DNA of 18,205 nucleotides. It comes from Accumulibacter sp. (lineage in GTDB: Bacteria > Pseudomonadota > Gammaproteobacteria > Burkholderiales > Rhodocyclaceae). The notes under the pieces are model-generated. The model was not told the origin of the DNA and ran no database searches. It was given only the letters and a program-made list of their open reading frames with translations. Shown here piece after piece: positions 1 through 16,159 of the stretch. The position numbers and the translations under genes were made by a program. The stretch lies in the NCBI GenBank assembly GCA_031274075.1, contig JAISQQ010000242.1, positions 1 through 18,205 of the forward strand. Direction: 5' to 3'. Each line of letters begins with the position of its first letter. The first letter of the stretch is position 1.

Positions 1-38
1 GTCAAAAGCGGGGCTGGTGCCCCGCGCTCCCAGAGGCG
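1..38. repeat. GC-rich hairpin repeat (type D), copy 1
   Basis: Positions 8-25 form a perfect 7-bp stem (GCGGGGC / GCCCCGC) with a TGGT loop, followed by CGCTCCCAGAGGCG. The whole 38-bp stretch recurs exactly as its reverse complement at 9696-9733. Its central 28 bp recur in direct orientation at 9759-9786. It directly abuts the heptamer element at 35-90 and seems to have replaced that element's left arm. No coding function is seen. Confidence 0.85.
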
Positions 39-90
39 CTTCGCGCCCGCAAATATTACTGTCCTCTGTCCTCTGTCTTCTGTCCTCTGA
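35..90. repeat. Heptamer-arm palindromic element, copy E1 (half element)
   Basis: The hairpin core lies near 35-50 and is followed by CCGCAAATATTA. Then comes an arm of four tandem heptamers (CTGTCCT, CTGTCCT, CTGTCTT, CTGTCCT). On the minus strand this arm supplies the last ten residues and the TAA stop of the LplT-like gene. The expected left arm is missing and type D repeat sequence stands in its place. Seven related copies lie elsewhere in the window. Confidence 0.85.
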
Positions 91-1465
91 ACCCCAGCCA
101 CGCCAGCGCGCGGATGAGAAATTCCGGCACGACGCTGAATATGTAGGCGGTGACGGCGGCGTGCAGGCCCGCGACCAGCAGGAAGAGGCGCGGGATGCTG
201 TTCCCGCCGCCGAGGAAGACGCTGGCTCCGGCGGCGGCGAGCACCATGAACAGGGCGTTGAGGATGTTGTTGGCGGCGATGATCCGCGCCCGGTATTCGA
301 CCGCGCTGCGCTGCTGCACGAGCGCATAGAGCGGCACGCAATAGATGCCGCCGAAGACGCCGAGCAGCACCAGGTCGGCCAGGACGCGCAGGGTGCCGCC
401 GCGGGCCAGGGCGTCGGCGAGCGGCAGCAGCGCGCCGGCGGCTTCTCCCGGAGAGGCGAGCGCCAGGTCGGCGCCGAAGACGACCATGCCGAGCGCCCCG
501 AGCGGCACCAGCCCCGGCTCGACCAGCTTGCCGCGATAGCGGGTGAGCCGTTCGCACAACAGCGACCCCGAGCCGATGCCGATCGAGAAGACCGCCAGCA
601 GCACGGTCACCAGGCTTTCGCCGCCGCCGAGCACGCTCTTGGTGTAGGCCGGAAACTGCGCCAGCAGCAGCGCGCCGTAGGCCCAGAACCACGAAATCGC
701 CAGGATGGAGAGGAACACGCTGCGCTCCTTTCGCGCGAAGCCGATGCAGCGCCATGTTTCGCGCAGCGGATTGACGGCGATCTTCAGTTCCGGCGCGGGC
801 GCGGGCGCTTCGGGAATGTAGCGGCTCGACAGGAAACCGCCGACCGCCACCGTCAGGCAGATGGCGACGATCCAGGCGATGCCGCCGTCGAGGCCGGCCA
901 GCAGGCCGCCGGTGAGCGTGCCGAGCAGCACGGAAACGAAGGTTCCCGCCTCGACCAGCGCGTTGCCGCCGACGAGTTCGCCAGGATGCAGGTGCTGCGG
1001 CAGGATGGCGTATTTCACCGGGCCGAAGAGCGTCGATTGCAGGCCCAGCAGGAACAGCGCCGCGAGCAGCACCGGCAGGCTTTGCCGCCAGAAGCCGAAG
1101 CCGGCGAGGACGACGATGACGATCTCCAGCAGCTTGGTCGCGCGCGCCAGGCGCGCCTTGTCGAACTTGTCCGCCAGTTGCCCGGCGGTGGCGGAAAAGA
1201 GGAAGAACGGCAGGATGAAGAGGCCCGCCGCGATGTTGGCCAGCACCTCGGGCTTCAAACTGGTCCACGAAGCGGCGCTGAAGGTGAGCAGCACCACCAG
1301 CGCGTTCTTGTAGGCGTTGTCGTTGAACGCGCCGAGGAACTGGGTGACGAACAGCGGCCAGAAACGGCGCGTGCCGAACAGGGCGAACTGGGAGTGTTGG
1401 GAGTGCTGGGAGTGCTGGGAGTGCTGGGAGTGCTGGCCGGCCTCGCCGGCGGAGGTTTCATTCAT
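56..1465 (-). CDS. lplT: LplT-like MFS lysophospholipid transporter
   Basis: A 469-residue, very hydrophobic protein of the major facilitator superfamily. The N-terminal FVTQFLGAFNDNAYKNALVV stretch is characteristic of LplT-type flippases, which move lysophospholipids across the inner membrane to the acyltransferase Aas. About 12 membrane segments can be read, with the usual cytoplasmic loop ADKFDKARLARATK after the second or third. The ATG at 1463-1465 overlaps the upstream gene's TGA by 8 bp, which supports the start and translational coupling. Two oddities are visible. Five tandem 9-bp units encode (QHS)5 just after the start. The final RGQKTEDRGQ and the stop codon are encoded by a dispersed repeat, not by family sequence. 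Identity as LplT is inferred from motif and from the neighbouring aas. A general MFS transporter is the alternative. Confidence 0.85.
   Translation of the reverse strand: MNETSAGEAGQHSQHSQHSQHSQHSQFALFGTRRFWPLFVTQFLGAFNDNAYKNALVVLLTFSAASWTSLKPEVLANIAAGLFILPFFLFSATAGQLADKFDKARLARATKLLEIVIVVLAGFGFWRQSLPVLLAALFLLGLQSTLFGPVKYAILPQHLHPGELVGGNALVEAGTFVSVLLGTLTGGLLAGLDGGIAWIVAICLTVAVGGFLSSRYIPEAPAPAPELKIAVNPLRETWRCIGFARKERSVFLSILAISWFWAYGALLLAQFPAYTKSVLGGGESLVTVLLAVFSIGIGSGSLLCERLTRYRGKLVEPGLVPLGALGMVVFGADLALASPGEAAGALLPLADALARGGTLRVLADLVLLGVFGGIYCVPLYALVQQRSAVEYRARIIAANNILNALFMVLAAAGASVFLGGGNSIPRLFLLVAGLHAAVTAYIFSVVPEFLIRALAWLGFRGQKTEDRGQ
1390..1434. repeat. Coding 9-bp tandem repeat, 5 units
   Basis: Five consecutive GGGAGTGYT units on the plus strand (the first has GTT, the other four GCT). 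They encode (QHS)5 on the minus strand at residues 11-26 of the LplT-like protein, upstream of the first membrane segment. The unit length is a multiple of three, so slippage would change length without changing frame. Confidence 0.9.
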
Positions 1466-2714
1466 GCGTGCGTTCCTCGAAGAAGGCGCGGGTGGCGAAA
1501 ACCCGCGCCGGAAAGGATTTGCCCTGCCACGACAGGCTGCGCTTGAGCGCCAGGTCGAAATAGAGCGGATTGTGTTCGCGCAGCGTTTGCAGGTCGGCGA
1601 CGGCTTCTTTCGGCAACAGGCCGCGGGCGGCCAGCGCGGCGGGCGAGACCAGCGGCAGGATGCCCGGCAGCGGATAGTCGGAACCGTTGAGCAGGCGTCC
1701 GTGCCAGTCGCCCTGTTCGAGCAGGGTGCGGATGACCTCGGGTTCGCGGTTGCGCAGCACGATGGCCGAAATGTCGCCGAAGAGGCGCTCCTTCCACTCC
1801 GTCCGTTCCATGAGACGGGTGAACAGCTCGAAGCTCGCGCGCCGCGTCCCCGGCCGGTCGAGGTCTTCGTCGGTACCCACGGTGGCGCAATGCGCCACCA
1901 CCACCCGCGCGCCCGCGTCCAGCGCCCGCCGCAGGCGCAGCGGATTGCCCAGGTACTCCAGGCTCGCGTTCTGTGCCGCCTTTTCCGCGCCGCAGTGGGT
2001 GATCAGCGGCAGGCGCAAACGGGCGAGCGCGGCGAAGAAAGCGTCGCAGCGCTTCGCCGCGGGGTCGATGTTCTGCGCCGCCGGCAGCCATTTCACCGCC
2101 CTCGCGCCCTGCGCCGCGGCGGCTTCGAGCCGATCCAGGGCGTCGGGGGCGTAGGGATGGATGGAAGCCGCCCATTCGAACACCTCCGGCCGCGCCGCCG
2201 CCACGCGGCGGGCGTAGTCGTCCGGGACATAAAACGTGCTTTGCGCCGCGTCCGGGCGGCCGGCGTCGTCGCGATACCAGTCGAAGGCGAAGAGCAGCGT
2301 CTTGAAACCGGGTGCTATGTTCCGCGCCAGCAGGGCGATGCGGCGCACGTAGTTTTCGTCGACGCTGCCCGGCTCGGTCGCCACGCAGCCGGCGTTGAGA
2401 TAGAACAGGCGCTGGCTGTAGAGCACCGGATGCCACAGGCTCAGCAAGGACGCCCCGATCTCGAGGCCGTTGCCGCTGTCGCCGATGCCCGCCAGATGCA
2501 CGTGCCCATCCCAGACCTGGGCGGGATCGAGTCCTTCCCAGACCCTGGCGAGCCACGGACTCTCCGCCAGGGCGTCGAGCGCGGGATCGCGGCAGGGATT
2601 GACGAGCCGGGGCCGGGGCCGGGATAAGCCAAGCCCGGCCATCCCCGTCCCGAGCGCCAGCAGGCCGGCCTTGAGGAAATGGCGGCGCGCGGCGGATGCT
2701 TTTTTTTCCTTCAT
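1458..2714 (-). CDS. Tat-exported amidohydrolase-like metal-dependent hydrolase
   Basis: A 418-residue protein resembling the amidohydrolase_2 TIM-barrel group. Residues 10-15 read RRHFLK, a twin-arginine motif followed by a hydrophobic stretch (LLALGTGMAGLGLS), so export through Tat is likely. Visible metal-site candidates are HVH at about 71-73, K at about 208 in AVKWLP, H at about 240 in ITHCG, H at about 275 in VAHC, and D at about 346 in NGSDYPLP. The order and spacing suit a mononuclear or binuclear amidohydrolase. I chose ATG 2714 because it puts the Tat motif at the normal place and has GGAG 11 bases upstream. An in-frame GTG at 2741 would add nine residues. The gene lies between aas and lplT and overlaps lplT by 8 bp, which suggests a role in envelope lipid or lipid-derived substrate metabolism. 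That role and the substrate are not shown by the sequence. Confidence 0.8.
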   Translation of the reverse strand: MKEKKASAARRHFLKAGLLALGTGMAGLGLSRPRPRLVNPCRDPALDALAESPWLARVWEGLDPAQVWDGHVHLAGIGDSGNGLEIGASLLSLWHPVLYSQRLFYLNAGCVATEPGSVDENYVRRIALLARNIAPGFKTLLFAFDWYRDDAGRPDAAQSTFYVPDDYARRVAAARPEVFEWAASIHPYAPDALDRLEAAAAQGARAVKWLPAAQNIDPAAKRCDAFFAALARLRLPLITHCGAEKAAQNASLEYLGNPLRLRRALDAGARVVVAHCATVGTDEDLDRPGTRRASFELFTRLMERTEWKERLFGDISAIVLRNREPEVIRTLLEQGDWHGRLLNGSDYPLPGILPLVSPAALAARGLLPKEAVADLQTLREHNPLYFDLALKRSLSWQGKSFPARVFATRAFFEERTHE

Positions 2715-2782
2715 CGTAAAACGAACTCCGGTTTGAGCCACCGCCCTTCAGGACGGCGCGGATTCAGGTTGATTCGGCTGAT

Positions 2783-4975
2783 TCAGGCTTCCTCCGCCAG
2801 GCGTTTCAGGGAGACGTAATCGGTCTTGCCGGTGCCGAGCAGCGGCAGCGCCTCGAGGCGCACGATCTTGCGCGGCACCGCCAGTTCGGGCAGGCCCAGT
2901 TGCCGCGCCGCTCGCTGCAGCGCGGCGCGATCGAGTCCGGCGAGGGTGGTGAACAGCACCAGCGCCTCGCCCTTGTCGGCGTCGGGCTGGCTGGAGACGG
3001 CGTGCTGCCCCTCGGGCGCGGCGGCCAAGGCCAGTTTTTCCGCCGTTTCCAGGCTCACCATCTCGCCCGCCACCTTGGCGAAGCGCTTGACGCGGCCAAG
3101 GATATGCACGAAGCCATCGTCGTCGATGTCGACGATGTCGCCGGTCTCGTACCAGCCCGCCCCGACCTCGGAGGCCGGCGCCTGCAGCACCCCGGGCCGG
3201 TCGGCTTTCAGGTAGCCGCTCATGACGTTGGGGCCGCGCACGTGCAGCACGCCGCCGCGCTCGATGCCGGGCACCGGCAGCAGGCGGTGTTCGAGGCTCG
3301 GCAGCAGTTGCCCCACGGTGCCGCGGCGATAGGCCATCGGCGTGTTGACCGCGATCACCGGCGCGGTCTCGGTGGCGCCGTAGCCTTCGAGAATGCGGAT
3401 GCCGAACTTCTCGAACCATTGGTCGCGCACGGCGTCGGCGAGCTTTTCGGCTCCGGCGACGACGTAGCGCAGGCGGTAGAAATCGTAGGGATGCGCGAAG
3501 CGCGCGTAGTTGCCGAGGAAGGTGCTGGTGCCGAACATCACCGTGCAGCCGCGGTCGTAGGCCAGTTCGGGAATCACCCGGTAATGCAGCGGCGAGGGAT
3601 AGAGGAAGAGGCTCGCGCCGGTGAGCACCGGCAGCAGGGTTCCCGCCGTCAGTCCGAACGAGTGGAAGATCGGCAGCACGTTGAGCACGCGGTCGTCGAT
3701 GGAAAAATCGACGATCGCGCGAATCTGCGCGACGTTGGCGAGAATCGCCCGGTGCGACAAGACCACGCCCTTGGGTTTGCCCTCGGAACCGGAGGTGAAC
3801 AGCACCACCGCGGCGTCCTCGGTATCCGCCTCGCCTTCCACCGCGCGCGGGAACCACAGCGCCCAGGCCAGCAGCCAGAGCTTGTCGAAAAAGCGCATCT
3901 CCGCGCGCAGGTCTTCAAGATAGACAATGCGCTCCAATTCCTGCAAGGCCGCCAGCTTGTCGGCCAGCTTGGCCTGCTCGACGAAGGCGCGCGAGGTGAT
4001 CACGGTGCGGATCTCCGCCGCCGTGCATGCCGCCTGCATGCCGTCGACGCCCGCCGTGTAGTTGAGCATCGCCGGCACGCGCTTCAAGGCCGTCAGGCCG
4101 AGGAACAGACCGAGGGTCGGCATCATGTTGGGCAGCAGCAGGCCGACGCGCTCGCCGGGGCGGGTCAGGCGTCCGGCCAGCCGCCCGAGCGCCAGCGCCG
4201 TCTTCAGCAAATCCTGGTAGGAATATTCCACCTGCTTGATGTCCTCAACCACGCGGCGGCCGCGCCCATGCTGTTCGATGGCGTCGCACAGCGCGCCGTA
4301 GAGAGTGCGCCGGTGCGGCTGCGCCAGCGCCATCTCCTGCATCAGCCGGCGCAGCGCCTCGCCGGCCTTCTGGCGGCGCGCCTTGGCCGAAGGCGCTTCC
4401 GGCATCGGCAGCCGGGTCATCGGCAAAACGGTGAGGGTGATGCGCGGAAAGAGCTTGCGCGGCCGTCCGTACAGGCGCGAGAAATAGCTGCGCGACGGGC
4501 CGTCGAGGCGCACCGGCAGGAGCGTCGCCGCCGTCTTCGCCGCCACGAAGGCCGGCCCGTCGTAGACTTTCATCAGCCCGCCGGTGAGCGTGATCCGCCC
4601 CTCGGGGAAGATCACCACCGGGCGGCCGGATTCCAGCAGCCGCACCACCCGCTTCATCGCCATCGGATTGCCCGGATCGACCGACAGGTAGTCGGCCATC
4701 ACCCCGAGCCAGAAGCGCCAGAAACAGCGCTTCACCACTTCGGTATGCACCACGAAGACCGGGTTTTCGATCGGCAGGAACAGGCCGAGCAGGATGCCGT
4801 CGAGAAAGGATTCGTGATTGGCGATCACCAGCAGCCGCCGCCCCTTCACGCTCCCCGCCTCCCGCGCTGCGTCGATTCCCCGCACCCGCACGCGGAACAG
4901 GAGCCTCGCCAGGGCGCGCAGGATCACGTGCAGGAAGCCGCGCGCGCAGGCTCTGAGCGTATTTTTGTCTGTCAT
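2783..4975 (-). CDS. aas: Bifunctional acyltransferase / acyl-ACP synthetase (Aas)
   Basis: A 730-residue fusion, close to the 719 residues of E. coli Aas. Residues 1-230 are a PlsC-like acyltransferase with the H-x4-D motif (NHESFLD, H54/D59) and FPEGR (123-127). The rest is an AMP-binding acyl-activating enzyme with FTSGSEGKPKG (about 393-403), EGYGATETAPV (about 530-540) and YETGDIVDID. The family activates fatty acids onto ACP and re-acylates lysophosphatidylethanolamine at the inner membrane. The start is uncertain: ATG 4975, ATG 4981 and TTG 4999 are in frame and none has a clear ribosome-binding site. I prefer 4975 because its leader aligns with the arsR leader up to the ATG. It lies 34 bp after arsR, and the downstream Tat hydrolase and flippase complete the cluster. 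Confidence 0.92.
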   Translation of the reverse strand: MTDKNTLRACARGFLHVILRALARLLFRVRVRGIDAAREAGSVKGRRLLVIANHESFLDGILLGLFLPIENPVFVVHTEVVKRCFWRFWLGVMADYLSVDPGNPMAMKRVVRLLESGRPVVIFPEGRITLTGGLMKVYDGPAFVAAKTAATLLPVRLDGPSRSYFSRLYGRPRKLFPRITLTVLPMTRLPMPEAPSAKARRQKAGEALRRLMQEMALAQPHRRTLYGALCDAIEQHGRGRRVVEDIKQVEYSYQDLLKTALALGRLAGRLTRPGERVGLLLPNMMPTLGLFLGLTALKRVPAMLNYTAGVDGMQAACTAAEIRTVITSRAFVEQAKLADKLAALQELERIVYLEDLRAEMRFFDKLWLLAWALWFPRAVEGEADTEDAAVVLFTSGSEGKPKGVVLSHRAILANVAQIRAIVDFSIDDRVLNVLPIFHSFGLTAGTLLPVLTGASLFLYPSPLHYRVIPELAYDRGCTVMFGTSTFLGNYARFAHPYDFYRLRYVVAGAEKLADAVRDQWFEKFGIRILEGYGATETAPVIAVNTPMAYRRGTVGQLLPSLEHRLLPVPGIERGGVLHVRGPNVMSGYLKADRPGVLQAPASEVGAGWYETGDIVDIDDDGFVHILGRVKRFAKVAGEMVSLETAEKLALAAAPEGQHAVSSQPDADKGEALVLFTTLAGLDRAALQRAARQLGLPELAVPRKIVRLEALPLLGTGKTDYVSLKRLAEEA

Positions 4976-4997
4976 ATCCATGGATTTCGTTATGTCC
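4973..4997 (-). promoter_or_regulatory. Putative ArsR-family operator at aas start
   Basis: The 25 bases ending at the ATG of aas match 17 of 25 bases of the segment ending at the ATG of arsR (5319-5343). The shared core is GAYATAACKAA followed by CAT and GAYATG. This copy is less palindromic than the arsR one. Whether the regulator binds here is inference. Confidence 0.35.
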
Positions 4998-5009
4998 AAT
5001 CAAAAAAAA

Positions 5010-5321
5010 TCAGCAACACGCGCGCACGTAGTCGAGCACATTGCCCAGGGTTTCTTCCAGCCAGCGCCGGTTGATCCAGAACCAGACCTCCTTGCCGATC
5101 TTCTCCGAACACAGCACGCCCGCCTCGTGCAGAATCTTGAGGTGGTGCGACACCGTGGAACGGCTCAGCGTCGACACCGCGGCGATCTGCCCGACGTTGA
5201 GGCGCTCGCCCCGGTCGAACAACATCAGGATGCGCTGCCGGTGCTCGTCGCCCAAAGCCGTGAAAACCCGGGCCATCGGACGCCACTCGGGAGGGATCGA
5301 ACGAGTATAATCGGTTTTCAT
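5010..5321 (-). CDS. ArsR-family winged-helix transcriptional regulator
   Basis: A 103-residue protein. FTALGDEHRQRILMLF opens the domain, the recognition helix is STLSRSTVSHHLKILHEAG, and a short wing (EKIGKEVWFWINRR) follows. This is the full length of a typical ArsR/SmtB repressor. The frame stays open to 5501, but the extra 60 codons are repeat sequence (heptamer element E2), so ATG 5321 is chosen. The metal-binding ELCVCD-type helix of ArsR/SmtB sensors is absent (it reads LNVGQIAA here). Candidate ligands are limited to a cysteine in VLCSEK and a C-terminal RACC, so it may sense a non-metal signal. It precedes aas by 34 bp and likely controls itself and the aas operon. Confidence 0.9.
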   Translation of the reverse strand: MKTDYTRSIPPEWRPMARVFTALGDEHRQRILMLFDRGERLNVGQIAAVSTLSRSTVSHHLKILHEAGVLCSEKIGKEVWFWINRRWLEETLGNVLDYVRACC

Positions 5322-5343
5322 GTCGATGATCTTAGTTATATCG
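5319..5343 (-). promoter_or_regulatory. Putative autoregulatory operator of the arsR gene
   Basis: On the minus strand TCGAT (5340-5344) and ATCGA (5323-5327) form an inverted repeat spaced by 12 bp, overlapping the ribosome-binding region and start of arsR. This size and placement suit a dimeric winged-helix repressor. A related sequence sits at the same place relative to aas. Confidence 0.45.
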
Positions 5344-5360
5344 ATACGTTGTGTCAAGGC

Positions 5361-5470
5361 TTCCAGGGGACAGAAGACAGAAGACAGTAATATTTGCGGG
5401 CGCGAAGCGCCCGGTAAGCGAACTGTCCTCTGTCCTCTGTCTTCCGTCCTTTGTTCTCCGTCCTCTGGAA
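5361..5470. repeat. Heptamer-arm palindromic element, copy E2 (best full copy)
   Basis: About 110 bp bounded by TTCCAG and CTGGAA. The left arm has three GACAG heptamers (GGGACAG, AAGACAG, AAGACAG). Next come TAATATTTGCGG, a perfect GGGCGC-GAA-GCGCCC hairpin core, and GGTAAGCGAA. The right arm has six heptamers starting with CTGTCCT. It lies in the divergent gap between arsR and the symporter gene, so it is not confined to gene 3' ends. Confidence 0.9.
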
Positions 5471-5573
5471 TCCCTGCGGAAAGTGTTGATTCCCGGAGCA
5501 TTAACCGGCATCATCGCCGCTTTTACCGCGCCCGCGCCCGATTTTTCCCCGAAACTTCCGTGATAGGAATGGC

Positions 5574-7121
5574 ATGATCCCTAAACTTGTAATGATGCTG
5601 GCGTTTTTTGCCATCACCGTCCATATCGGCTTCCGTACCCGGAAGAGCGCGATGGATGTCGATGGTTTCGTGCTGGGTGGGCGCAATGTGGGGCCGTGGC
5701 TTTCTGCCTTTGCTTATGGCACCTCGTATTTTTCGGCGGTGGTCTTTATCGGTTATGCCGGTCAGTTCGGCTGGAAGTACGGCATGGCGGCGCTATGGAT
5801 AGGCTTGGGCAACGCTTTCGTCGGCAGCCTGCTGGCCTGGTACGTGCTGGGCGCGCGCACGCGCGCGATGACGCATCACTTGCGGGCGCAAACCATGCCG
5901 GAGTTTTTTGGCGCGCGTTTTTCGAGCCGCGGGCTGCGCATTGCCGCGGCGGCTATCATTTTCGTTTTTCTCATTCCGTATACCGCCAGCGTTTACAATG
6001 GCCTCTCGCGCCTCTTCGACATGGCGTTCAGTATTCCATACGAGTGGTGCGTCATTTTCATGGCGGCGCTGACCTGCGTCTATGTGGTGCTGGGAGGGTA
6101 TATGGCGACCGCCGTCAATGACACGGTGCAGGGGTGCGTCATGTTGTTCGGCATCGTCGCCGTCATCGTCGCCGCCTTGAGCGGCCATGGCGGTTTTACG
6201 CAGGCGCTCGTCACCTTGTCGCGGGTGCCCAACGACGTGGCGGGCACGGCCGGGATGCAGGGCGCGTTCATTTCGCTGTTTGGCCCCGACCTTTTCAATC
6301 TTGCGGGGGTGTTTGTCCTGACTTCGCTGGGCACCTGGGGATTGCCGCAGATGGTGCAGAAGTTCTACGCCATCAAGAGCAGCCTGGCCATCAAGCGCGG
6401 GGCCATCATTTCGACGGTGTTCGCGCTGGTGGTCGCCGGCGGCAGCTATTTCCTGGGAGGATTCGGCCGCCTCGCCGCGGACCGCGTCGCCTATACGCCC
6501 GCCGGCACGCCGGTGTACGATTCGATCATTCCCGCCATGCTGGCGAACATGCCGGACGTGCTCATCGGGCTGACGGTGGTGCTGGTGTTGAGCGCCTCCA
6601 TGTCGACCCTGAGCGCGCTCGTGCTGACCTCGAGTTCCACGCTGACGCTCGATTTTCTCAGGGGCAATTTCATCAAGGAGATGGACGTCAAGTTCCAGCT
6701 CGTGACGATCAGGCTGCTCATCGTGGCGTTCGTGCTCATCTCGATGTTCATCGCGCTCATCCAGTACAACTCGTCGGTCACTTTCATCGCGCAGCTCATG
6801 TCCATCAGTTGGGGAGCGTTGGCGGGCGCGTTCCTGGCGCCCTTTCTCTACGGGCTTTACTGGAAACGCGTCACCACGGCCAGCGTCTGGGCGTGTTTCG
6901 TTTTCGCGCTGCTGCTGGTCTGTTCCAACATGGCGCTGGGCGTCAGTTCGCCGATCAACGCCGGCGCGCTGGCGATGCTTGCGGGACTGGTCATCGTGCC
7001 GCTGGTCAGTCTCGTCACGCCGCCGCCCGACGCCGCCCGCGTCGACGCGCTGTTCAGGGAGTCCTACCTCAATTTCCATGATGCGAGGATAGACGCGGAT
7101 CAGGTGGCAGGTGGCAGGTGA
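5574..7121 (+). CDS. Sodium:solute symporter family (SSS) protein
   Basis: A 515-residue integral membrane protein with about 13 hydrophobic segments and the look of the SSS (SLC5-like) family. Visible marks are a short N-terminal helix followed by GFVLGGRNVGPWLSAFAYGTSYFSAV (the TM2 signature), then GWKYGMAALWIGLGN, the conserved WGLPQMVQKFYAIKS and the serine-rich SASMSTLSALVLTSSSTLTLD. The last of these matches the family's Na2-site region. Members import an organic solute with Na+, but the substrate cannot be read here. ATG 5574 has AGGA about 8 bases upstream. The closing residues DQVAGGR and the TGA stop are encoded by dispersed repeat E3. It stands alone on the plus strand and is convergent with the rhodanese gene. 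Confidence 0.9.
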   Translation: MIPKLVMMLAFFAITVHIGFRTRKSAMDVDGFVLGGRNVGPWLSAFAYGTSYFSAVVFIGYAGQFGWKYGMAALWIGLGNAFVGSLLAWYVLGARTRAMTHHLRAQTMPEFFGARFSSRGLRIAAAAIIFVFLIPYTASVYNGLSRLFDMAFSIPYEWCVIFMAALTCVYVVLGGYMATAVNDTVQGCVMLFGIVAVIVAALSGHGGFTQALVTLSRVPNDVAGTAGMQGAFISLFGPDLFNLAGVFVLTSLGTWGLPQMVQKFYAIKSSLAIKRGAIISTVFALVVAGGSYFLGGFGRLAADRVAYTPAGTPVYDSIIPAMLANMPDVLIGLTVVLVLSASMSTLSALVLTSSSTLTLDFLRGNFIKEMDVKFQLVTIRLLIVAFVLISMFIALIQYNSSVTFIAQLMSISWGALAGAFLAPFLYGLYWKRVTTASVWACFVFALLLVCSNMALGVSSPINAGALAMLAGLVIVPLVSLVTPPPDAARVDALFRESYLNFHDARIDADQVAGGR

Positions 7122-9399: not shown

Positions 9400-9424
9400 G
9401 GTCGTTTCGGAAGCGGTCTCGGGT

Positions 9425-9507
9425 CAGGGGACGGAGGACAGAGGACAGTAATTCTTGCGGCGGCGGAGCCGCCGGTAGATGAACTATTTCCAGTCTTCCG
9501 TCCTCCA
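9425..9507. repeat. Heptamer-arm palindromic element, copy E5 (decayed)
   Basis: The left arm is GGACGG AGGACAG AGGACAG, then TAATTCTTGCGG. The hairpin core is CGGCGG-CGGAG-CCGCCG and GGTAGATGAACT follows. The right arm is degraded to CAGTCTTCCGTCCTCC. It sits just upstream of the EamA start codon. Confidence 0.8.
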
Positions 9508-9608
9508 AAAATCATCGGATTCTATTCCCTTCCTTCCAGCTTTCCAATTGAACGAAGTTATCCAGGGCCATCGCATGGACGCCATCATGTTTGAAACGGG
9601 GCAGGATC

Positions 9609-9633
9609 GTAGGGCGGATGCAATCCGCCCTAC
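9609..9633. repeat. Perfect GTAGGGCGG hairpin repeat
   Basis: An 11-bp perfect stem beginning GTAGGGCGGAT, a GCA loop, and the complement ending CCGCCCTAC. A related but degenerate copy lies at about 9848-9870, and a larger inverted repeat with the same GTAGGGCGG ends is at 14041-14117. The GTAG foot followed by a palindrome recalls REP elements. Confidence 0.8.
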
Positions 9634-9652
9634 CCGACCGCCTCTCGCCTCT

Positions 9653-9704
9653 GTGCCGCCTCTGGGTGCCGCCTCTGGGTGCCGCCTCTGGGTGCCGCCT
9701 CTGG
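9653..9704. repeat. 13-bp tandem repeat, 4 units
   Basis: Four exact consecutive copies of GTGCCGCCTCTGG, running straight into the type D repeat whose end (GCCTCTGGGAGCGC) shares the same sequence. The tandem probably grew by amplification of the type D edge. Confidence 0.93.
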
Positions 9705-9733
9705 GAGCGCGGGGCACCAGCCCCGCTTTTGAC
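9696..9733. repeat. Type D hairpin repeat, inverted copy
   Basis: The exact reverse complement of window positions 1-38, with hairpin GCGGGGC / GCCCCGC. It is paired with a direct copy of 28 bp 25 bases further on, so the two together form a larger inverted repeat. Confidence 0.9.
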
Positions 9734-9758
9734 CCGCGCCATGACACTACCGCTGTTG

Positions 9759-9786
9759 CGGGGCTGGTGCCCCGCGCTCCCAGAGA
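9759..9786. repeat. Type D hairpin repeat, direct copy
   Basis: Identical to window positions 8-35. It is in inverted orientation to the copy at 9696-9733. Confidence 0.9.
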
Positions 9787-9893
9787 ACCAATCGCAAACA
9801 GTCGTAGCTTTGCCGCAGACGAAGCCTGCGCCAATCTTGCAGAAATGCGGCGGATTGCATCCACCCTACGGGACCGTCCCTCGCCTCTGCGCC

Positions 9894-9967
9894 GCCTCTG
9901 GGAGCGCGGCGCTTCCGCCCCGCAAGAATTACTGATTCCTGATTCCCGACATCTGATCCCTGCCACC
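9894..9967. repeat. Heptamer-arm element, copy E6 (variant heptamer, half element)
   Basis: A type D edge (CCTCTGGGAGCGC) is fused to the core GCGCTTCCGC..CCGCAAGAATTA. A right arm of about five heptamers of a third sort follows: CTGATTC, CTGATTC, CCGACAT, CTGATCC, CTGCCAC. The same type D/core junction is seen in E1. Confidence 0.75.
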
Positions 9968-10028
9968 TCTCCAACTGAACGAAGTGTTATCCTTGGAATA
10001 TTTTTCAACGTTTCAGCCATCTCACGCC

Positions 10029-10310
10029 ATGTCTCGATCACTCTCTGCGGAAAAGGACGCGAAGGAATCTCCCGTTCCGGCGGTATCCCCGGACACCCCG
10101 TTTGAAACGGCTCTCGCGGAAATCGAACAGATCGTCCAGGACATGGAAAGCGGTCGCCTGCCGCTGGAAGAATCGATCCTGGCCTACCGCCGCGGCAGCG
10201 AGCTGCTCAGGCATTGCCAAGGGCAGCTCGGCGAGGCGGAGCGGCGGATCCAGATGTTCGAGAAGGGCGAGTTGCGCGATGCGGTGCTGGACGGGGAATC
10301 CGGCCGATGA
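10029..10310 (+). CDS. xseB: Exodeoxyribonuclease VII small subunit
   Basis: A 93-residue protein. Its core FETALAEIEQIVQDMESGRLPLEESILAYRRGSELLRHCQGQLGEAERRIQ is the standard XseB helical-hairpin domain, preceded by about 25 low-complexity residues. With XseA it forms the nuclease that degrades single-stranded DNA. XseA is not in this window. ATG 10029 is chosen. A GTG at 9984 is in frame, but the added residues come from repeat-flanking sequence. No strong ribosome-binding site is seen. The TGA overlaps the ispA ATG (ATGA), so the two are translationally coupled, as in many proteobacteria. Confidence 0.95.
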   Translation: MSRSLSAEKDAKESPVPAVSPDTPFETALAEIEQIVQDMESGRLPLEESILAYRRGSELLRHCQGQLGEAERRIQMFEKGELRDAVLDGESGR

Positions 10311-11203
10311 GCGCGCGCCTGCCCTTCCCCGAGTGGATGGCCTGCGTCCAGGAGCGCGTCGAAAAAGCGCTGGCGCGTCATTTGCCGTCCGCCGAGGCCA
10401 TTCCGGCGCGCCTGCACCGGGCGATGCGCTATTCCTGCCTCAACGGTGGAAAAAGGGTGCGCCCGCTGCTGGCCTTCGCCAGCGGGGAAATCTGCGCGGC
10501 GCCTGAGGAAAAGCTGGAAATCGTCGCCTGCGCGCTGGAAATGATCCACGCCTATTCGCTGGTGCACGACGACCTGCCGTGCATGGACAACGACGTATTG
10601 CGCCGCGGCCGCCCCACCTGCCACGTCGAATACGGCGAAGCGACCGCGCTGCTCGCCGGCGACGCCTTGCAGACGCAGGCTTTCCTGCTGCTCGCCCGGG
10701 AAAGCCTCGGCGACCCGGCCGTGCAGCTTGAAATGCTGCGCGTGCTGGCCCACGCCTGCGGCTCGCTGGGCATGGCCGGCGGCCAGGCGATCGACCTCGA
10801 CGCGGTTGGCCGCGCGCTGGAACTGCCGGAACTGGAATTGATGCACGCGATGAAGACGGGCGCCTTGATCCGCGCCGCGGCGACGCTCGGCGCGCTCTGC
10901 GGCGAAGGCTTGCCCGACGGGGCGCGGCAGGCGCTGGATCGCTTCGCCAAACGCGCCGGCCTGCTCTTCCAGGTGGTCGACGACATTCTCGACTGCACCG
11001 CGAGCACGGCCACGCTCGGCAAGACCGCGGGCAAGGATTCGGCCGCCGACAAACCCAGCTGCGTCGGCCTGATGGGGCTGGAACGGGCGCGGGAATTCGC
11101 CGGCCAACTGCGCGAACAGGCGATCGAGTCGCTGGCGTCCTTCGGCGAGCGGGCGCGGCGGCTGGTCGAATTGACCGACTTCATCGCCCGCCGCCGGTTT
11201 TAG
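10307..11203 (+). CDS. ispA: Polyprenyl (farnesyl) diphosphate synthase
   Basis: A 298-residue protein, the normal IspA length. It has GGKRVRP (48-53), the first aspartate-rich motif DDLPCMD (88-94), a KTG at about 183, and the second motif QVVDDILD (222-229). It condenses dimethylallyl diphosphate with isopentenyl diphosphate to geranyl and farnesyl diphosphate in the cytoplasm. The ATG overlaps the xseB stop. It is followed by dxs after 25 bp, giving the classic xseB-ispA-dxs order. Chain length (C15) is assumed from gene order. Confidence 0.96.
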
Positions 11204-11228
11204 TGCCGCGGCCCGCCCCCTGCAAAGC

Positions 11229-13085
11229 ATGAACGCCTATCCCCTGCTCGACACCATCGATCATCCGGCGCAACTGCGCCAACTCGAGCGCAAGCAGTTG
11301 CCGCAAGTGGCCGAGGAATTGCGCGCTTTCCTCGTGGAATCGGTGTCGCGCACCGGCGGCCACCTGTCGTCGAACCTCGGCACGGTCGAGCTGACCATCG
11401 CCCTGCACTACGTCTTCGACACGCCGGACGACCGGCTCGTCTGGGACGTCGGGCACCAGACCTACGCGCACAAGATCCTCACCGGACGCCGCGCCGGAAT
11501 GGCCCGGCTGCGCACCCACGGCGGCGTCTCGGGCTTCCCCAAGCGCTGTGAAAGCCCGTACGACACCTTCGGCGTCGGCCACTCCTCGACGTCGATTTCC
11601 GCGGCGCTCGGCATGGCCCTCGCCGCCAAGTTCAACGGCGACGCGCGGCGCACGGTGGCGATCATCGGCGACGGCGCGATGTCCGCCGGGCAGGCTTTCG
11701 AGGCGCTCAACAACGCCGGCGTGGCCGACGCCGACATGCTCGTCATTCTCAACGACAACGACATGTCGATTTCCCCGCCGGTCGGCGCGCTGAACAAATA
11801 CCTCGCGCGCGCGCTGTCCGGCAGCGCCTTCAACGCCGCCCGCCGCGCCGGGGAAAAGGTGCTCCGCGTCTCGCCCTCCCTGCTCCAGTTCGCCAGCCGC
11901 GTGGAAGAGCACGTCAAGGGCATGCTGACGCCGGGAACCCTGTTCGAGGAACTCGGCTTCAACTACATCGGGCCGATCGACGGCCACGACCTCGACTCGC
12001 TGATCCCGACGCTGCAAAACCTGCAAAAACTCAAGGGGCCGCAATTCCTGCACGTGATCACCTGCAAGGGGCAAGGCTACAAGCTGGCCGAGGCCGATCC
12101 GGTGCTCTACCACGGCGTCACCCGCTTCCAGCCGGAGGTCGGCATCGAAGACCGGCAGACCGGCGGCAAGCCGACCTACACCCAGGTCTTCGGCCGATGG
12201 CTGTGCGACATGGCCGCCGTCGAGCCCCGGCTGGTCGCCATCACGCCGGCCATGGGCGAGGGTTCGGGCATGATGGAATTCGCCGAGCGTTTCGCCGAAC
12301 GCTACTTCGACGTCGGCATCGCCGAACAGCACGCCGTGACTTTCGCCGCCGGCCTCGCCTGCGAAGGCATGCGCCCGGTGGTCGCCATCTATTCGACCTT
12401 CCTCCAGCGCGCCTACGACCAGTTGCTGCACGACGTCGCGCTGCAAAAGCTGCCAGTCGTCTTCGCCCTCGACCGGGGCGGGCTGGTCGGCGCCGACGGT
12501 CCGACGCATCACGGCGCGTTCGACCTCTCGTACCTGAGCTGCATCCCGAACATGGTGGTCATGACCCCCGGCGACGAAGAAGAATGCCGCCGGATGCTGA
12601 GCACCGCGCTGCGCCACGACGGCCCCTGCGCGGTGCGCTACCCGCGCGGTCCCGGCCCCGGCGTAAACACCTCGGAGACGCTGGACGGCCTGCCCATCGG
12701 CCGGGGCGAGATCCGGCGGCACGGCAAGAACGTCGCCCTGCTCGCCTTCGGCAGCATGCTGACGCCGGCCCTGCAGGCGGGCGAAGCGATCGACGCCAGC
12801 GTGGCCAACATGCGCTTCGCCAAGCCGGTCGACCGCGAACTGATCGTCCGTCTGGCGCGGGAACATTCGCTGCTCATCAGCATCGAAGAAAATGCGCTGA
12901 TCGGCGGCGCCGGCGCGGAAGTCGCCCGCGTCCTCGACGAAACCGGCAGCCCGGCGCGCTTCGTGCGCATGGGACTCCCGGACCGCTTCATCGATCACGG
13001 CGACCAGTCCAGGCTGCTTGCGGAAGCCGGACTCGACAAGGCCGGTATTCTCCGCATGGTGCAAAGCTGCCAGGATAAGGAATAA
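11229..13085 (+). CDS. dxs: 1-deoxy-D-xylulose-5-phosphate synthase
   Basis: A 618-residue, full-length DXS. The thiamine diphosphate motif runs from [16 protein letters not shown] to LNDNDMS (147-180). The catalytic glutamate is E366 in [24 protein letters not shown] and [13 protein letters not shown] are also typical. It joins pyruvate and glyceraldehyde 3-phosphate in the first step of the MEP pathway, which supplies IspA with precursors. The start [17 protein letters not shown] fits the family. The ATG has no strong Shine-Dalgarno sequence, so coupling to ispA is likely. folE2 follows after 8 bp. Confidence 0.97.
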
Positions 13086-13093
13086 GCAACGGA

Positions 13094-13930
13094 ATGAGCA
13101 ACACGCAAAAGCAAAACGCCGCCGCCATACTCGACGTGCAGAGTCTCGCCGACACCCGGCGCATCGCCATCAACCGGGTGGGAATCAAGTCCATCCGCCA
13201 TCCGGTCAAGGTGCTCGACCGCTCGGGCGGAATCCAGCACACCATCGCGGTGTTCGGCATGTACGTCGGGCTGCCGCACAATTTCAAGGGCACGCACATG
13301 TCGCGCTTCGTGGAAATCCTCAACAGCCACGAACGCGAAATCTCGGTGCAAAACTTTCCGGTCATGCTGCGCGAAATGGTGCGCAAGCTGGAAGCGGAAA
13401 CCGGGCACATCGAGATGAACTTCCCCTATTTCATCGCCAAGTCCGCCCCGGTTTCCGGCGTGCAAAGCCTGATGGACTACGACGTCACGCTGACCAGCGA
13501 AATATCCCACGGCGAGATCGCCTCGACGATCAAGGCCGTCGTTCCCGTCTCCAGCCTGTGCCCGTGCTCCAAGAAAATCTCGGAACGCGGCGCGCACAAC
13601 CAGCGCTCGCACGTCACCGTCACCGCCCGCATCCTCGAACACGTATGGATCGAGGAAATCGTCCAACTGGTCGAAGCGCAGGCCTCATGCGAGCTTTACG
13701 GCCTGCTCAAGCGGCCCGACGAGAAGTACGTCACCGAGCGCGCCTACGACAATCCCAAATTCGTCGAAGACATGGTGCGCGACGTCGCCGCCAGGCTCAA
13801 CGCGGAAGAGCGCATCGGCGCGTACATCGTCGAATCGGAGAACTTCGAGTCGATCCACAATCACTCGGCGTACGCGCTGATCGAGAACGATAGGCAGGGG
13901 ACAGAGGACGGAGGACAGAAGACAGAATAG
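13094..13930 (+). CDS. folE2: GTP cyclohydrolase FolE2 (type IB)
   Basis: A 278-residue protein of the COG1469/FolE2 family. Features are [11 protein letters not shown], the catalytic-cysteine region [20 protein letters not shown] (Cys156 and Cys158) and the closing [12 protein letters not shown]. It turns GTP into 7,8-dihydroneopterin triphosphate for folate and related pterins or queuosine. It is the isoenzyme that can use metals other than zinc, so zinc limitation is often its context, though no Zur-like site is evident here. ATG 13094 follows the dxs stop by 8 bp, with AAGGA at 13077-13081. The last 13 residues (about [12 protein letters not shown]) and the TAG derive from repeat E7. The family sequence ends near ALIEND. 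Confidence 0.95.
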
Positions 13931-13956
13931 TTTGCGGCGCGAAGCGCCGGAGACAA
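13893..13956. repeat. Heptamer-arm palindromic element, copy E7 (right arm lost)
   Basis: The left arm is GGGGACAG AGGACGG AGGACAG AAGACAG, then AATAGTTTGCGG, the core GGCGC-GAA-GCGCC and GAGACAAACGAACTG. Where the right arm should start, the type B hairpin begins. The arm encodes the end of folE2. Confidence 0.85.
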
Positions 13957-13990
13957 ACGAACTGGATTCCGGCTTTCGCCGGAATGACGG
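13957..13990. repeat. Type B hairpin repeat, copy 1
   Basis: GAACTGGATTCCGGC-TTTC-GCCGGAATGACGG. Read on the minus strand it ends CCAGTTCGTTT and matches the copy at 14149-14183. Such short intergenic hairpins with GGATTCCGGC..GCCGGAATGAC are common dispersed repeats in proteobacteria. Confidence 0.8.
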
Positions 13991-14040
13991 CGTGGAAATG
14001 GCCGCGCGGCGGCTCAACCCGGCGTATGTCCGTCCAACCC

Positions 14041-14117
14041 GTAGGGCGGGAAAGCGAAGCGCCTCCCGCCGGTCGTTCCCCTCCACCGCGCCAGCGGCGC
14101 ATATTTTTCCGCCCTAC
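14041..14117. repeat. 77-bp inverted repeat with GTAGGGCGG ends
   Basis: It starts GTAGGGCGGGAAAGCGAAGCG and ends with the complement TTTTTCCGCCCTAC, giving imperfect terminal inverted repeats of about 14 bp. It shares the GTAGGGCGG end with the hairpin at 9609-9633. No coding capacity. Confidence 0.75.
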
Positions 14118-14148
14118 GCGGACTGAACGTTGGTATAGGCCTAGAGGC

Positions 14149-14183
14149 GTCGTCCCGGCGCAAACCGGGACCCAGTTCGTTCC
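14149..14183. repeat. Type B hairpin repeat, copy 2
   Basis: GTCGTCCCGGC-GCAAA-CCGGGACCCAGTTCGTTCC, the same scheme as the minus strand of 13957-13990 with compensating stem changes (CCCGG/CCGGG against TTCCGG/CCGGAA). The downstream TCCTCGAAATTCCTGGATTC resembles the tail of the copy at 16021. Confidence 0.75.
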
Positions 14184-14334
14184 TCGAAATTCCTGGATTC
14201 TTTCTTTCCTTATCGCTTTCCTCTGAAAAGTGCTTGCATCGGGCTGATTTGCTGATGTAAATTCAGGCTCGCGAGTCCGTGGCAAGAGTGTGGGCAAAAT
14301 GGAAAAAGCGGCGCGATACCTTCCCGTTTACGTC

Positions 14335-14367
14335 CAGGCCAGAATTCCTGATTCCGGCCTGATTTTT
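14335..14367 (+). terminator. Terminator-like hairpin
   Basis: CAGGCC-A-GAAT / ATTC-C-GGCCTG with loop TCCTG, followed by ATTTTT. The stem is about 10 bp with one A.C mismatch. No gene ends nearby on this strand except folE2, 400 bp away, so it may end a small transcript or attenuate the lipoprotein mRNA. Confidence 0.45.
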
Positions 14368-14430
14368 GCTGTACACACTCATCGCTCGTTAACCGCGCCC
14401 GCCGCCAAGCGTAGCGCGGCTTTTGGTGTT

Positions 14431-14444
14431 CCCCCCCCCCCCCC
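14431..14444. repeat. Poly-C homopolymer, 14 C
   Basis: An uninterrupted run of 14 C, followed by GTTTTT, 177 bp before the lipoprotein start. Such runs slip readily in replication and, near promoters, can cause phase variation. A sequencing or assembly length error is equally possible. Confidence 0.9.
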
Positions 14445-14450
14445 GTTTTT

Positions 14451-14484
14451 AGATCCTGCTTCTGTCTAGGTCCTGCTTCTGTCG
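14451..14484. repeat. 17-bp tandem duplication
   Basis: Two copies of AGRTCCTGCTTCTGTCK directly after the poly-C tract, sharing 13 exact bases in TCCTGCTTCTGTC. Confidence 0.85.
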
Positions 14485-14502
14485 GGAATGGAGTCTTTTC
14501 GT

Positions 14503-14598
14503 CTCCCCATTTCCGGGTGACCGCAAGCAGGCAGCTTAGTCCGCCGCTATCGTCCTCGCCGGCTTTCCGCCGCTACGGGGATGACTATCCCGATTTTT
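14503..14598 (+). promoter_or_regulatory. Possible attenuator or riboswitch-like leader
   Basis: GGGAT (14578-14582) pairs with ATCCC (14587-14591) and is followed by GATTTTT, a short terminator-like hairpin ending just before AAGGAG. The same GGGG can instead pair with CCCC at 14505-14508, closing an intervening structured segment. The two pairings exclude each other. No known aptamer was recognised. Confidence 0.25.
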
Positions 14599-14620
14599 CC
14601 TCTGCGACAAGGAGTCTTTG

Positions 14621-15931
14621 ATGAAACACATACAGGCCGTTCTATTTTCCGTGATGTTCGCCGCGATGCTGGCGCTGGTTGGTTGCGGCGGTGGGGGTGG
14701 TTCCCATGACAGTGATGGCGGTGATGTCACGCCGCCGGTCTTCAGCATCGCCATCGCGCCGCAGACCGTAGTGATCCAGACTGGCGAGACGCTGACGCTC
14801 GAAGCCACGGTTAATCAGGGCGGCGTCACTTGGCCGGCGGTGGTACAGAACGCCACATTGACTCCGAGCGGCAATACGGTGACCTTTACTACCAATACAT
14901 CAGGCACCTACACGATCACCGTCACGGCGGACAACGATCCGGGCCAGACCGCAACGGCGACGATAATGGCATACAGATTCACGGATATCGCCTATCCGGG
15001 CGCGGATAATACCTACGTTATTGGCATCGACACCTCGGGGCGGGTTTTCGGCTCGTATCAGGACGCCAGTGGTGCCAATAGCGGTTATTCACATGGCTTC
15101 GTGTATGACGGCGCAAGCTACACACCCATCGTTTATCCAAATGCAATCAATACCGACGTTATTGACATCGACGCCTCGGGCCAGGTTTTCGGCTCGTATC
15201 GGGACGCTAGTGGTCAGTACCATGGCTTCATGTATGACGGCACTACCTATGCCTCTATCGATTATCCAAATGCAATCGAAACCCATGTTATTGACATTAA
15301 CGCCTCGGGCCGGGTTCTCGGCTCGTACCGGGACGCCAGTAGTCAGTACCACCATGGCTTCATGTATGATGGCGTGACCTATATACCCATCGTTTATCCA
15401 AATGCAATCAGTACCTCCCCCACTGACATCGACGCATCGGGCCGGGTTCTCGGCCAGTATCGGGACGCCAGTGGTCAGTTCCATAGCTTCATGTATGACG
15501 GCGCGACCTACACACCCATCGTTTATCCAAATGCAATCGCTACCTTCGCTACTGGCATCGACACCTTGGGCCGGGTTTTCGGCTCGTATCGGGACACCAG
15601 TGGTGCCAGTACCAATAGCGGTGATTGGCATGGCTTCGTGTATGACGGCACGACTTACTCACCCATCGTTTATCCGAATGCGAGCGGCGAAACCGAGATT
15701 GTGGGCATTGATGCGGCGGGCCGGATTTTCGGAATTTACCTTATGTCTACGACGGATGGTTCCTTTAACGAACACAGCTTCGTGTACGAGTACGACGGCG
15801 CGGCTTACACCGCCATTGATTATCCGGGCTCAGGTATCACTGATACCGACATGAAAGGCGTCAATGCGCTTGGACAGTTCTTCGGAATGTACAGCGACGC
15901 CACCGGTATTCACTTATTTGTGGCGCACTGA
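14621..15931 (+). CDS. Repeat-containing lipoprotein (HAF-like extracellular repeats)
   Basis: 436 residues. ATG 14621 has AAGGAG six or seven bases upstream. A lipoprotein signal ends in the lipobox LVGC (Cys22), followed by a glycine-rich GGGGGSH linker, so it is probably anchored in the outer or inner membrane. Residues about 40-117 resemble an Ig-like beta domain (FSIAIAPQTVVIQTGETLTL ... GTYTITVTADN). From about 119 come seven repeats of about 40-49 residues. Each has a core IVYPNA, then DIDASGRVFGSYRDASG and HGFMYDGTTY. This resembles the HAF-type extracellular repeat and would suit a beta-propeller or solenoid. The function is unknown. Central repeats are nearly identical at DNA level (CCCATCGTTTATCCAAATGC occurs three times exactly), so recent duplication or recombination is likely. 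It looks less GC-rich than its neighbours and may be acquired. Confidence 0.88.
   Translation: MKHIQAVLFSVMFAAMLALVGCGGGGGSHDSDGGDVTPPVFSIAIAPQTVVIQTGETLTLEATVNQGGVTWPAVVQNATLTPSGNTVTFTTNTSGTYTITVTADNDPGQTATATIMAYRFTDIAYPGADNTYVIGIDTSGRVFGSYQDASGANSGYSHGFVYDGASYTPIVYPNAINTDVIDIDASGQVFGSYRDASGQYHGFMYDGTTYASIDYPNAIETHVIDINASGRVLGSYRDASSQYHHGFMYDGVTYIPIVYPNAISTSPTDIDASGRVLGQYRDASGQFHSFMYDGATYTPIVYPNAIATFATGIDTLGRVFGSYRDTSGASTNSGDWHGFVYDGTTYSPIVYPNASGETEIVGIDAAGRIFGIYLMSTTDGSFNEHSFVYEYDGAAYTAIDYPGSGITDTDMKGVNALGQFFGMYSDATGIHLFVAH
15122..15680 (+). repeat. Intragenic near-identical DNA repeats (about 132 bp period)
   Basis: The sequence around CCCATCGTTTATCCAAATGC recurs near 15125, 15389 and 15513, with a close variant near 15660. 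A related ATCGATTATCCAAATGC lies near 15257. Successive units are about 120-150 bp apart, matching the protein repeat period. Confidence 0.85.
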
Positions 15932-16144
15932 GCGAAAGGCGCGAAAGCAATGCCTGGAGCATTTTCGGTTTAGGTACGGACACGATTCCGTCGTGTGAGC
16001 GTTGTGGTATAAGCTCAAGCACGTCGTCCCGGCTTGCGCTGGGACGACGTGCGTTCCTCAAAATTCCGGATTCCGGCTGTTCGGCTGACAGTAATTCATG
16101 CGGCGGCAAAGCCGCCGCAAACTCTACTGTCCTCCGTCTTCTGT
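15932..16144. other. Convergent intergenic region with hairpins
   Basis: 213 bp between the lipoprotein gene and rplS. It holds the perfect-stem hairpin at 16021-16050 and heptamer element E8. Either could serve as a bidirectional transcription barrier. No small gene is seen. Confidence 0.6.
16021..16050. repeat. Type B hairpin repeat, copy 3 (possible terminator)
   Basis: A 10-bp perfect stem (ACGTCGTCCC / GGGACGACGT) around GGCTTGCGCT, followed by GCGTTCCTCAAAATTCCGGATTC, whose tail matches the copy at 14149. It lies between convergent genes. No U-tract follows, so intrinsic termination is unproven. Confidence 0.7.
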
Positions 16145-16159
16145 CTACTGTCCTCCGAA
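16087..16159. repeat. Heptamer-arm palindromic element, copy E8
   Basis: GACAGTAATTCATGCGG is followed by the core GCGGC-AAA-GCCGC and CGCAAACTCTA. A right arm of four heptamers follows (CTGTCCT, CCGTCTT, CTGTCTA, CTGTCCT). On the minus strand the arm gives the last residues and the TAG of rplS. Confidence 0.85.

Follow-up and report, generated by a model that had tools for sequence, protein, structure and literature searches.

A dispersed hairpin repeat with exchangeable seven-base arms in an Accumulibacter genome

We analysed a stretch of DNA of 18,205 nucleotides from Accumulibacter sp. (assembly GCA_031274075.1, contig JAISQQ010000242.1, positions 1 to 18,205 of the forward strand; hereafter the window), in which eight copies of a palindromic element, made of tandem heptamer arrays beside a short GC hairpin, are dispersed. 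The most surprising result is that the kind of core stays while the heptamer changes, and that both arms of a copy change together. The element is read here as a non-autonomous dispersed hairpin repeat in which slippage and template switching would maintain the likeness of the arms, and we consider the chances of this whole reading to be about even.

Shared core and exchangeable arms

The genome that contains the window (G000) is a draft of 3.18 Mb in 474 contigs, 88.7% complete. The core motif TAATNTTTGCGG has 172 exact matches in it, divided 89 to 83 between the strands, and the reversed control has none. A covariance model (R1), built from 16 copies of this genome of which six lie in the window, gave at least 150 matches, the weakest of those scored having E = 1e-11. 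The initial annotation, made from the letters of the window, had described a dispersed element, and the count of at least 172 copies in the genome bears this out.

The element usually measures 80 to 125 bp. Its core consists of TAATATTTG, a GC stem of 6 to 9 bp with a loop of 3 to 4 bases, and GTAACTGA, and is flanked on both sides by inverted arrays, commonly of five parsed seven-base units. Sixty-eight copies of this genome, with the exact pattern and long enough flanks, were parsed, and identities were computed for the letters that the search pattern leaves free. Core positions 13 to 27, the hairpin part, are 93% identical, and the first two arm units are 82% (left) and 80% (right) identical. 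In the exact hairpin, the loop is GAA in 62 of 82 cores and the inverse TTC in 11, the rest of the core keeping one orientation, and a right arm is recognisable in 76 of 82 cores. A perfect stem of 6 to 13 bp is present in 57 of 58 distinct elements found by the model despite changed stem sequences (CGGGCGC, CGGCGGC, CGCGCGC, CGCGAGC and others), a conservation that is not independent of the search, since the model itself favours paired stems.

In 201 kb, CAG at 7-nt spacing forms 119 runs, compared with 0 to 33 for six other spacings. With the strict pattern, 99 of these 119 runs have a core within 70 bases, and most of the other 20 show a variant hairpin by eye. The commonest parsed arm has five units including the outermost one (24/68 on the left, 28/68 on the right), and the arm lengths are uncorrelated between the two sides (r = 0.03, 68 copies). 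The outermost unit tends to NGTTCAG on both sides, and its first four bases may be host DNA; no significant likeness was found between the outermost units on the two sides of one copy. Inner units of the ACAG type (n = 432) contain one hypervariable base, position 2, with G 240, A 153, T 36 and C 3 (1.35 bits), and position 1 is A in 95% and position 3 G in 99.5% of them, neither being forced by the parser.

Both arms are of the ACAG class in 59 of the 68 copies and of the TCAG class in five, three copies are mixed and one is ACAG/ACGG. The right arm is TCAG-type in all five copies with a TCAG left arm, compared to 3 of the 63 others (p = 5e-6). Among 28 elements from 12 genomes, the arm match was 17.3 within copies and 9.1 between copies (p = 0.0002). 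Since matching arms are favoured by the model, in which 14 arm pairs are scored, the comparison was redone with the 30 bases outside the model, which gave 10.3 within and 6.5 between copies (p = 0.0002). The genome G050 alone (completeness 100, contamination 0) gave 11.2 against 6.5 for the bases outside the model (p = 0.0004). Five heptamer types of this genome, CAGTTGT, GGGATCA, CTAGGGG, CCTCACC and TCGAGAG by eye, surround one kind of core, and cores of this kind are found in other genera beside unrelated heptamers.

Inheritance of the arms together with the core lineage was considered inside the ACAG class and rejected, as no pairs share both arms where 1.2 were expected. Chimeric copies are also found in G000, for example L035, L236, L237 and L252, with AGGACAG on the left and CTGATCC, CTGACAC or CTGTTAC on the right.

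Window copies, distribution and insertion sites

The copies in the window are listed below; the open reading frames (ORFs) were named by eye from their translations.

35 to 90, minus strand: copy 1, one-armed, a heptamer arm with TAATATTTGCGG and the hairpin, the second arm missing.
5361 to 5470, plus strand: copy 2, two-armed, core at 5388 to 5422, hairpin CGGGCGC-GAA-GCGCCCG.
7101 to 7200, minus strand: copy 3, two-armed, CAGGTGA-type heptamers in each arm.
8472 to 8550, plus strand: copy 4, two-armed, reaching the TGA stop of an EamA-like ORF at 8548 to 9399 (minus strand).
9425 to 9507, plus strand: copy 5, two-armed, hairpin CGGCGGC-GGA-GCCGCCG, the stem being altered on both sides.
9894 to 9967, minus strand: copy 6, one-armed, GGAATCA-type heptamers, the other side fused to another repeat family.
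13893 to 13956, plus strand: copy 7, one-armed; a folE2-like ORF at 13094 to 13930 reads in and stops at the TAG of the core.
16087 to 16159, plus strand: copy 8, two-armed with a short left arm, hairpin TGCGGCGGC-AAA-GCCGCCGCA.

The arm sequence GACAGARGACAG, with 13 occurrences in the window, was absent from all of 200 dinucleotide shuffles, and the hairpin-core pattern has 5 matches at 4 window sites compared with a mean of 0.04 and a largest value of 2 in 200 shuffles. All eight places given by the initial annotation contain a heptamer array beside a GC hairpin. Its shared plan of two heptamer arms describes five of them, the copies at 35-90, 9894-9967 and 13893-13956 being one-armed, and the core that it took as common is exact in three copies (47-58, 5388-5399 and 8503-8514) and variant in the remaining ones, the 7101 copy being without TAAT. 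Arms of the GACAG type had also been claimed, but the heptamer is not fixed, as the CAGGTGA type of the 7101 copy and the GGAATCA type of the 9894 copy illustrate.

The proposal that the whole folds into one long hairpin agrees with the DNA fold of the two-armed copies, which beat every one of 200 shuffles (z -5.2, -6.1, -7.7, -4.7 and -6.2 for copies 2, 3, 4, 5 and 8), and less well with the one-armed copies 1, 6 and 7, which gave z -2.5 (1/200 shuffles as good), -1.7 (11/200) and -3.3 (0/200). The covariance model recovers seven of the eight copies at E <= 0.001, copy 1 as a match at 11-72 on the minus strand with 27.4 bits and copies 2, 3, 4, 5, 7 and 8 with 82.9, 44.9, 83.1, 65.1, 52.9 and 59.7 bits, respectively; copy 6 was missed at this threshold. 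No Rfam family matched the window above its gathering score.

Copy 2 sits upstream of an ArsR-like ORF on the minus strand and of the ORF 5574-7121, which runs into copy 3 and stops at a TGA within the heptamer array. Predicted proteins receive odd tails from the copies, for example TEDGGQKTE at the end of the folE2-like ORF, which matters for annotation.

Seven of the 28 genomes of the genus have matches to R1 (E <= 0.001), at least 150 in G000, 131 in G199, 41 in G207, 35 in G219, 20 in G208, 15 in G202 and 1 in G211. The other 21 are without a match, and elements with another core may still be there. Matches were obtained in 15 of 199 genomes of the family at E <= 0.01, those in G130, G104 and G043 having no heptamer arms by eye and looking like chance, and in 3 of 300 genomes of the order at E <= 1e-4.

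The arm pattern GACAGARGACAG-N25..55-CTGTCYTCTGTC was found in at least 76 stretches of genome_contigs, mostly in records of metagenome-assembled genomes (MAGs). Among the matches listed, the record titles include Verrucomicrobia, Akkermansiaceae, Planctomycetota, Nitrospinota, Acidobacteria, Desulfobacterales, Oscillospiraceae, Kiritimatiellae, Bacteroidia, Gallionella and the isolate Volucribacter psittacicida, and the window-type core was seen by eye only in some of those titled Accumulibacter, Zoogloeaceae or Betaproteobacteria. As the two-arm GACAG pattern (gap 20-50) occurs in only one of 398 sampled genomes of the phylum, G000 itself, the occurrence across phyla is patchy. Volucribacter psittacicida contains two-armed GACAG elements with an AT-rich core (L124, L142), and since this is an isolate genome the arms are not confined to MAGs. 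In some Akkermansiaceae stretches (L085, L117, L127), CTCCCAGA adjoins the GACAG heptamers.

Carriage by phages was rejected: the two-arm GACAG pattern occurs in 3 stretches of viral_contigs, and the 15-base core gave 98 matches there, about chance by a rough estimate. A search of plasmids with one window copy gave no BLAST match, a weak result since BLAST masks simple repeats.

The sequence likeness to relatives ends near the element edges. The window, which is mostly 84-91% identical to G199, G207, G052 and G202, was compared at its junctions with G199, G052, G207 and more distant species, some comparisons being anchored on one flank only. Around copy 4, both flanks are present without an element between them in G199, G206, G209 and G213. 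No element was found beside the matching flank of copy 1 or the left flank of copy 2 (G052, G199, G207), beside the right flank of copy 3 (G199, G206, G209), at copy 5 (G199, G206, G209), between the neighbouring genes of copy 6 (G199, G206), at copy 7 (G199, G052, G207, G206, G209) or at copy 8 (G052, G207, G200, G213).

The flanks of 24 elements of G000, one being the 8472 copy of the window, were also searched in G199, G207, G052 and G202. Ten were examined, nine with both flanks on one contig of the relative and the tenth with one flank, and none of the ten sites carries the element in the relatives compared; the 21 stretches fetched from relatives contain no run of three CAG at 7-nt spacing. 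A further site, L034, is spanned without an element in 524 kb of G052. Such element-free orthologous positions, which the initial annotation had proposed to look for, are what would be expected if the element moves.

The L017 copy is cleanly inserted, with a TGA stop on one side and the AGGAG of the following gene on the other, and this site would allow a target duplication TGA or TGAT. At L251, the element replaces about 110 bp of G199, last codons included, and these codons are also different at L019, L240 (2398) and L236 (6771), where the reading frame continues into the array. Target duplications of 2-6 bp beside the outermost CAG/CTG, with right-hand shifts of 0-5, were sought in 68 copies and none was convincing, as only k = 4 with shift 1 was above permutation, with one copy compared to 0.03.

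Rough gene calls in 201 kb placed 42 of 58 cores between two called genes and 6 inside one, 10 lacking a neighbour. Among flanking gene ends, 25 of 40 3' ends have a core no more than 75 bp away, compared with 11 of 44 5' ends (p = 0.0008), counts that are not all independent because some cores share an intergenic region. Stop codons are often situated at the element border or furnished by the array.

Origin of the element and related repeats

Considering these data together, we propose that copies would be placed at new sites by a factor acting in trans, often against a gene 3' end, apparently without target duplication and at times at the cost of the last codons. The core would be the part that is recognised and copied, and the movement itself a transposition in trans. 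Once placed, the palindrome could form a hairpin or cruciform in replication. Slippage would then alter the unit number in each arm independently, and template switching between the arms would hold both to one heptamer kind and flip the hairpin loop. Template switching between inverted repeats yields inverted loops and arms that resemble each other, spacer inversion being its expected outcome (PMC8604942, in part), and the variable unit number fits slippage. The copies seem to have spread recently, and for a shared core to do so some process must copy it.

Several observations weigh against this proposal. No driving enzyme or autonomous copy was found in the searches, and the genome is itself a draft of 474 contigs. 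The ten sites are those with usable flank matches, which favours tidy element-free junctions. In G202, a heptamer-armed element with a different core follows folE2, at the same gene end as copy 7, and a heptamer array stands upstream of the gene to the right of the 9894 copy; heptamer elements or arrays thus occupy two of the eight same intergenic regions, and common descent of the position is possible there. The contrast between core and arms is moderate, core positions 28-34 to the right of the hairpin being 77% identical. Different heptamer classes occur in the two arms of 3 of 68 copies. A mirrored order of units between the arms was not found, with 0.34 observed and 0.41 expected in the inner register and 0.50 observed and 0.44 expected in the outer one (p = 0.11), and the ACAG class shows no co-variation between the arms of the two sides (Mantel p = 0.70). 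The unmirrored order speaks against very recent copying from arm to arm, and, together with the lack of co-variation, it would mean that template switching is old or overwritten at the variable base.

The hairpin might instead be a selected 3'-end element, an RNA structure that stabilises or ends transcripts, with copies retained where they are helpful. The nearness to gene 3' ends, the strong fold and the stems kept through sequence change would agree with this, as would the heptamer arrays of Xanthomonas, mostly transcribed and near stop codons in the part of PMC4692102 consulted. It is nevertheless unlikely, since the positions are not conserved among the relatives examined, 21 of the 28 genomes of the genus are without a model match, no T-run was seen by eye at the element ends, and survival at gene ends alone would give the same pattern. 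Transcription of the element followed by reverse copying at gene ends, a distinctly unlikely route, would account for the low RNA folding energies, the 3'-end location, the lack of an observed target duplication and the replacement of host DNA at some sites, but reverse transcriptases (PF00078) do not track the element, with 3 of 6 element-rich genomes against 14 of 22 others. An RNA-mediated spread of this kind has reportedly been proposed for cyanobacterial SDRs. Element-rich genomes are here those with 15 or more copies (G000, G199, G207, G219, G208 and G202, all drafts).

A miniature inverted-repeat transposable element (MITE) belonging to a DDE insertion sequence, with arms that are degenerate terminal inverted repeats, would likewise be palindromic, short, in many copies and patchy across the genus. 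Whole heptamer kinds are however exchanged between copies, so that the ends vary, the search for target duplications of 2-6 bp gave nothing convincing, and the element at L251 replaces host sequence, which makes this very improbable. We give little credence to a REPIN-like element moved through its hairpin by a RAYT (Y1 transposase) supplied in trans; the initial annotation had put forward a RAYT-like or other transposase. The element shares with REPINs and the repetitive extragenic palindromic (REP) sequences the small palindromic GC hairpin, the high copy number, the spread within the genome and the mostly intergenic location, REPINs being such elements (PMC3116915, PMC3733652, both in part). 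PF01797 (Y1_Tnp) is however absent from G000, as far as this 88.7% complete draft extends, and Y1_Tnp occurs in 1 of 6 element-rich genomes against 17 of 22 others of the genus (Fisher p = 0.013), a distribution opposite to the prediction, so that a RAYT is not supported. Moreover, a REP is defined by a GTAG or CGTC motif at one palindrome end (PMC3733652, in part) and has no iterated arms, whereas the hairpin here is flanked by TTTG (5') and mostly GGTAAC, with few GGTAG (3'), without a conserved tag, and stands between iterated seven-base arms. The view of the initial annotation that this dispersed palindrome fits neither REP nor MITE cleanly is supported. Least credible is that the arrays arose in place by polymerase slippage with nothing moving. 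The period of seven and the variable unit number would suit it, and a link to the polymerase footprint is discussed in PMC4692102 (in part), but a hairpin core 93% identical outside the search pattern at more than 170 places cannot stem from slippage, although slippage may account for the arms.

We file the element with the heptameric repeats, as a variant of them, and not with REP or MITE. No account of it was met among literature titles and abstract openings. The initial annotation recognised no named family, which was fair for the whole element; the arms, however, belong to the described heptameric repeats, whose excess in many bacteria has no agreed explanation and which include facing pairs in Xanthomonas (Rehm et al. 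2015, PMC4692102, the comparison being limited to part of that paper). These facing GGGAATC arrays, 70-75 pairs that form a subset of the Xanthomonas repeats, are the closest in print. They likewise have seven-base units, with arrays of four clearly preferred (five including the outermost being commonest here), are dispersed, mostly intergenic and close to or over the stop codon, and the arms of our elements face each other as their pairs do. The Xanthomonas units differ in being G-rich, and no hairpin core is mentioned between the pairs in that part of the paper. Of the Xanthomonas positions, 83% are shared between related species, compared with 0/10 here, where the species compared may be more distant. 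The GGGAATC pair pattern was found in none of 369 sampled genomes of the class.

Direct repeats of the heptamer TAACTGA in Beggiatoaceae, Cyanobacteria and Bacteroidetes are also tandem arrays, patchy across phyla (PMC4679880, in part). They differ in their direct orientation, the BOGUAY genome having one indirect repeat, and in lying mostly just upstream of start codons, and no hairpin core is described in the part of that source considered. TAACTGA, a unit of the CTGATAA type, is found in the core of the present element as well (GGTAACTGAA).

Heterocystous cyanobacteria contain STRR heptanucleotide repeats and SDR hairpins, an SDR being a hairpin of 21-27 nt within tandem heptamers, and they resemble the window element in having short hairpin elements set in tandem heptamers. 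The heptanucleotides of Calothrix are mentioned in PMC4692102. TTGTCAG, an STRR unit, equals the CAGTTGT unit of G050.

More broadly, the element may represent an unrecognised class of bacterial mobile palindrome, in which a hairpin core travels and two inverted arms with a strict period of seven bases and a replaceable sequence are rewritten in concert. The facing GACAG heptamer arrays in Verrucomicrobiota, Planctomycetota, Nitrospinota, Acidobacteria, Desulfobacterota, Bacillota and Volucribacter psittacicida would then be the same class with other cores. We put this forward tentatively, as a possibility that we would sooner expect to fail than to hold. As the heptameric arms belong here to a defined element with a shared core and a search model, and relatives in the genus range from no model match to more than 170 copies, the origin of heptameric repeats becomes testable, in that one can ask whether the core is mobile, by what it is copied and how both arms come to switch heptamer jointly.

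Other repeats in the window and its relatives

A second dispersed repeat family, of the GGGAGCGCGGGGC-ACCA-GCCCCGC type with CTGGGAGCGC, is present in the window at 1-34, where it adjoins copy 1, and at 9694-9801; at least nine further contigs of G000 match around the latter. The one-armed copies at 35 and 9894 are both fused to this family. A third dispersed palindrome, of the GGATTCCGGCTTTCGCCGGAATGACG type, occurs at 13960-14000, 14124-14200 and 16020-16085, and copies of it flank several heptamer elements.

Both ends of L163 (contig C192 of G202) contain a second core type, a long stem with AACCGAGCGCTCGGTTTT between the same heptamer arms, and 4317-4565 of this stretch is a 36-base tandem array of 6.9 copies made of heptamers and GCGATTTGAG. 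Elements resembling those of L163 are found in JAITAJ records (L104, L133).

Simple repeats are also present in the window. A run of 14 C at 14431-14444, which could be a slippage switch, precedes by about 175 bp a lipoprotein-like ORF (14618-15931) with 129-base internal repeats. A perfect 13-base tandem array of GTGCCGCCTCTGG lies at 9653-9705, and at 1388-1436 a 9-base CTGGGAGTG tandem array stands at the start of an MFS-like ORF, giving HSQ repeats in the protein.

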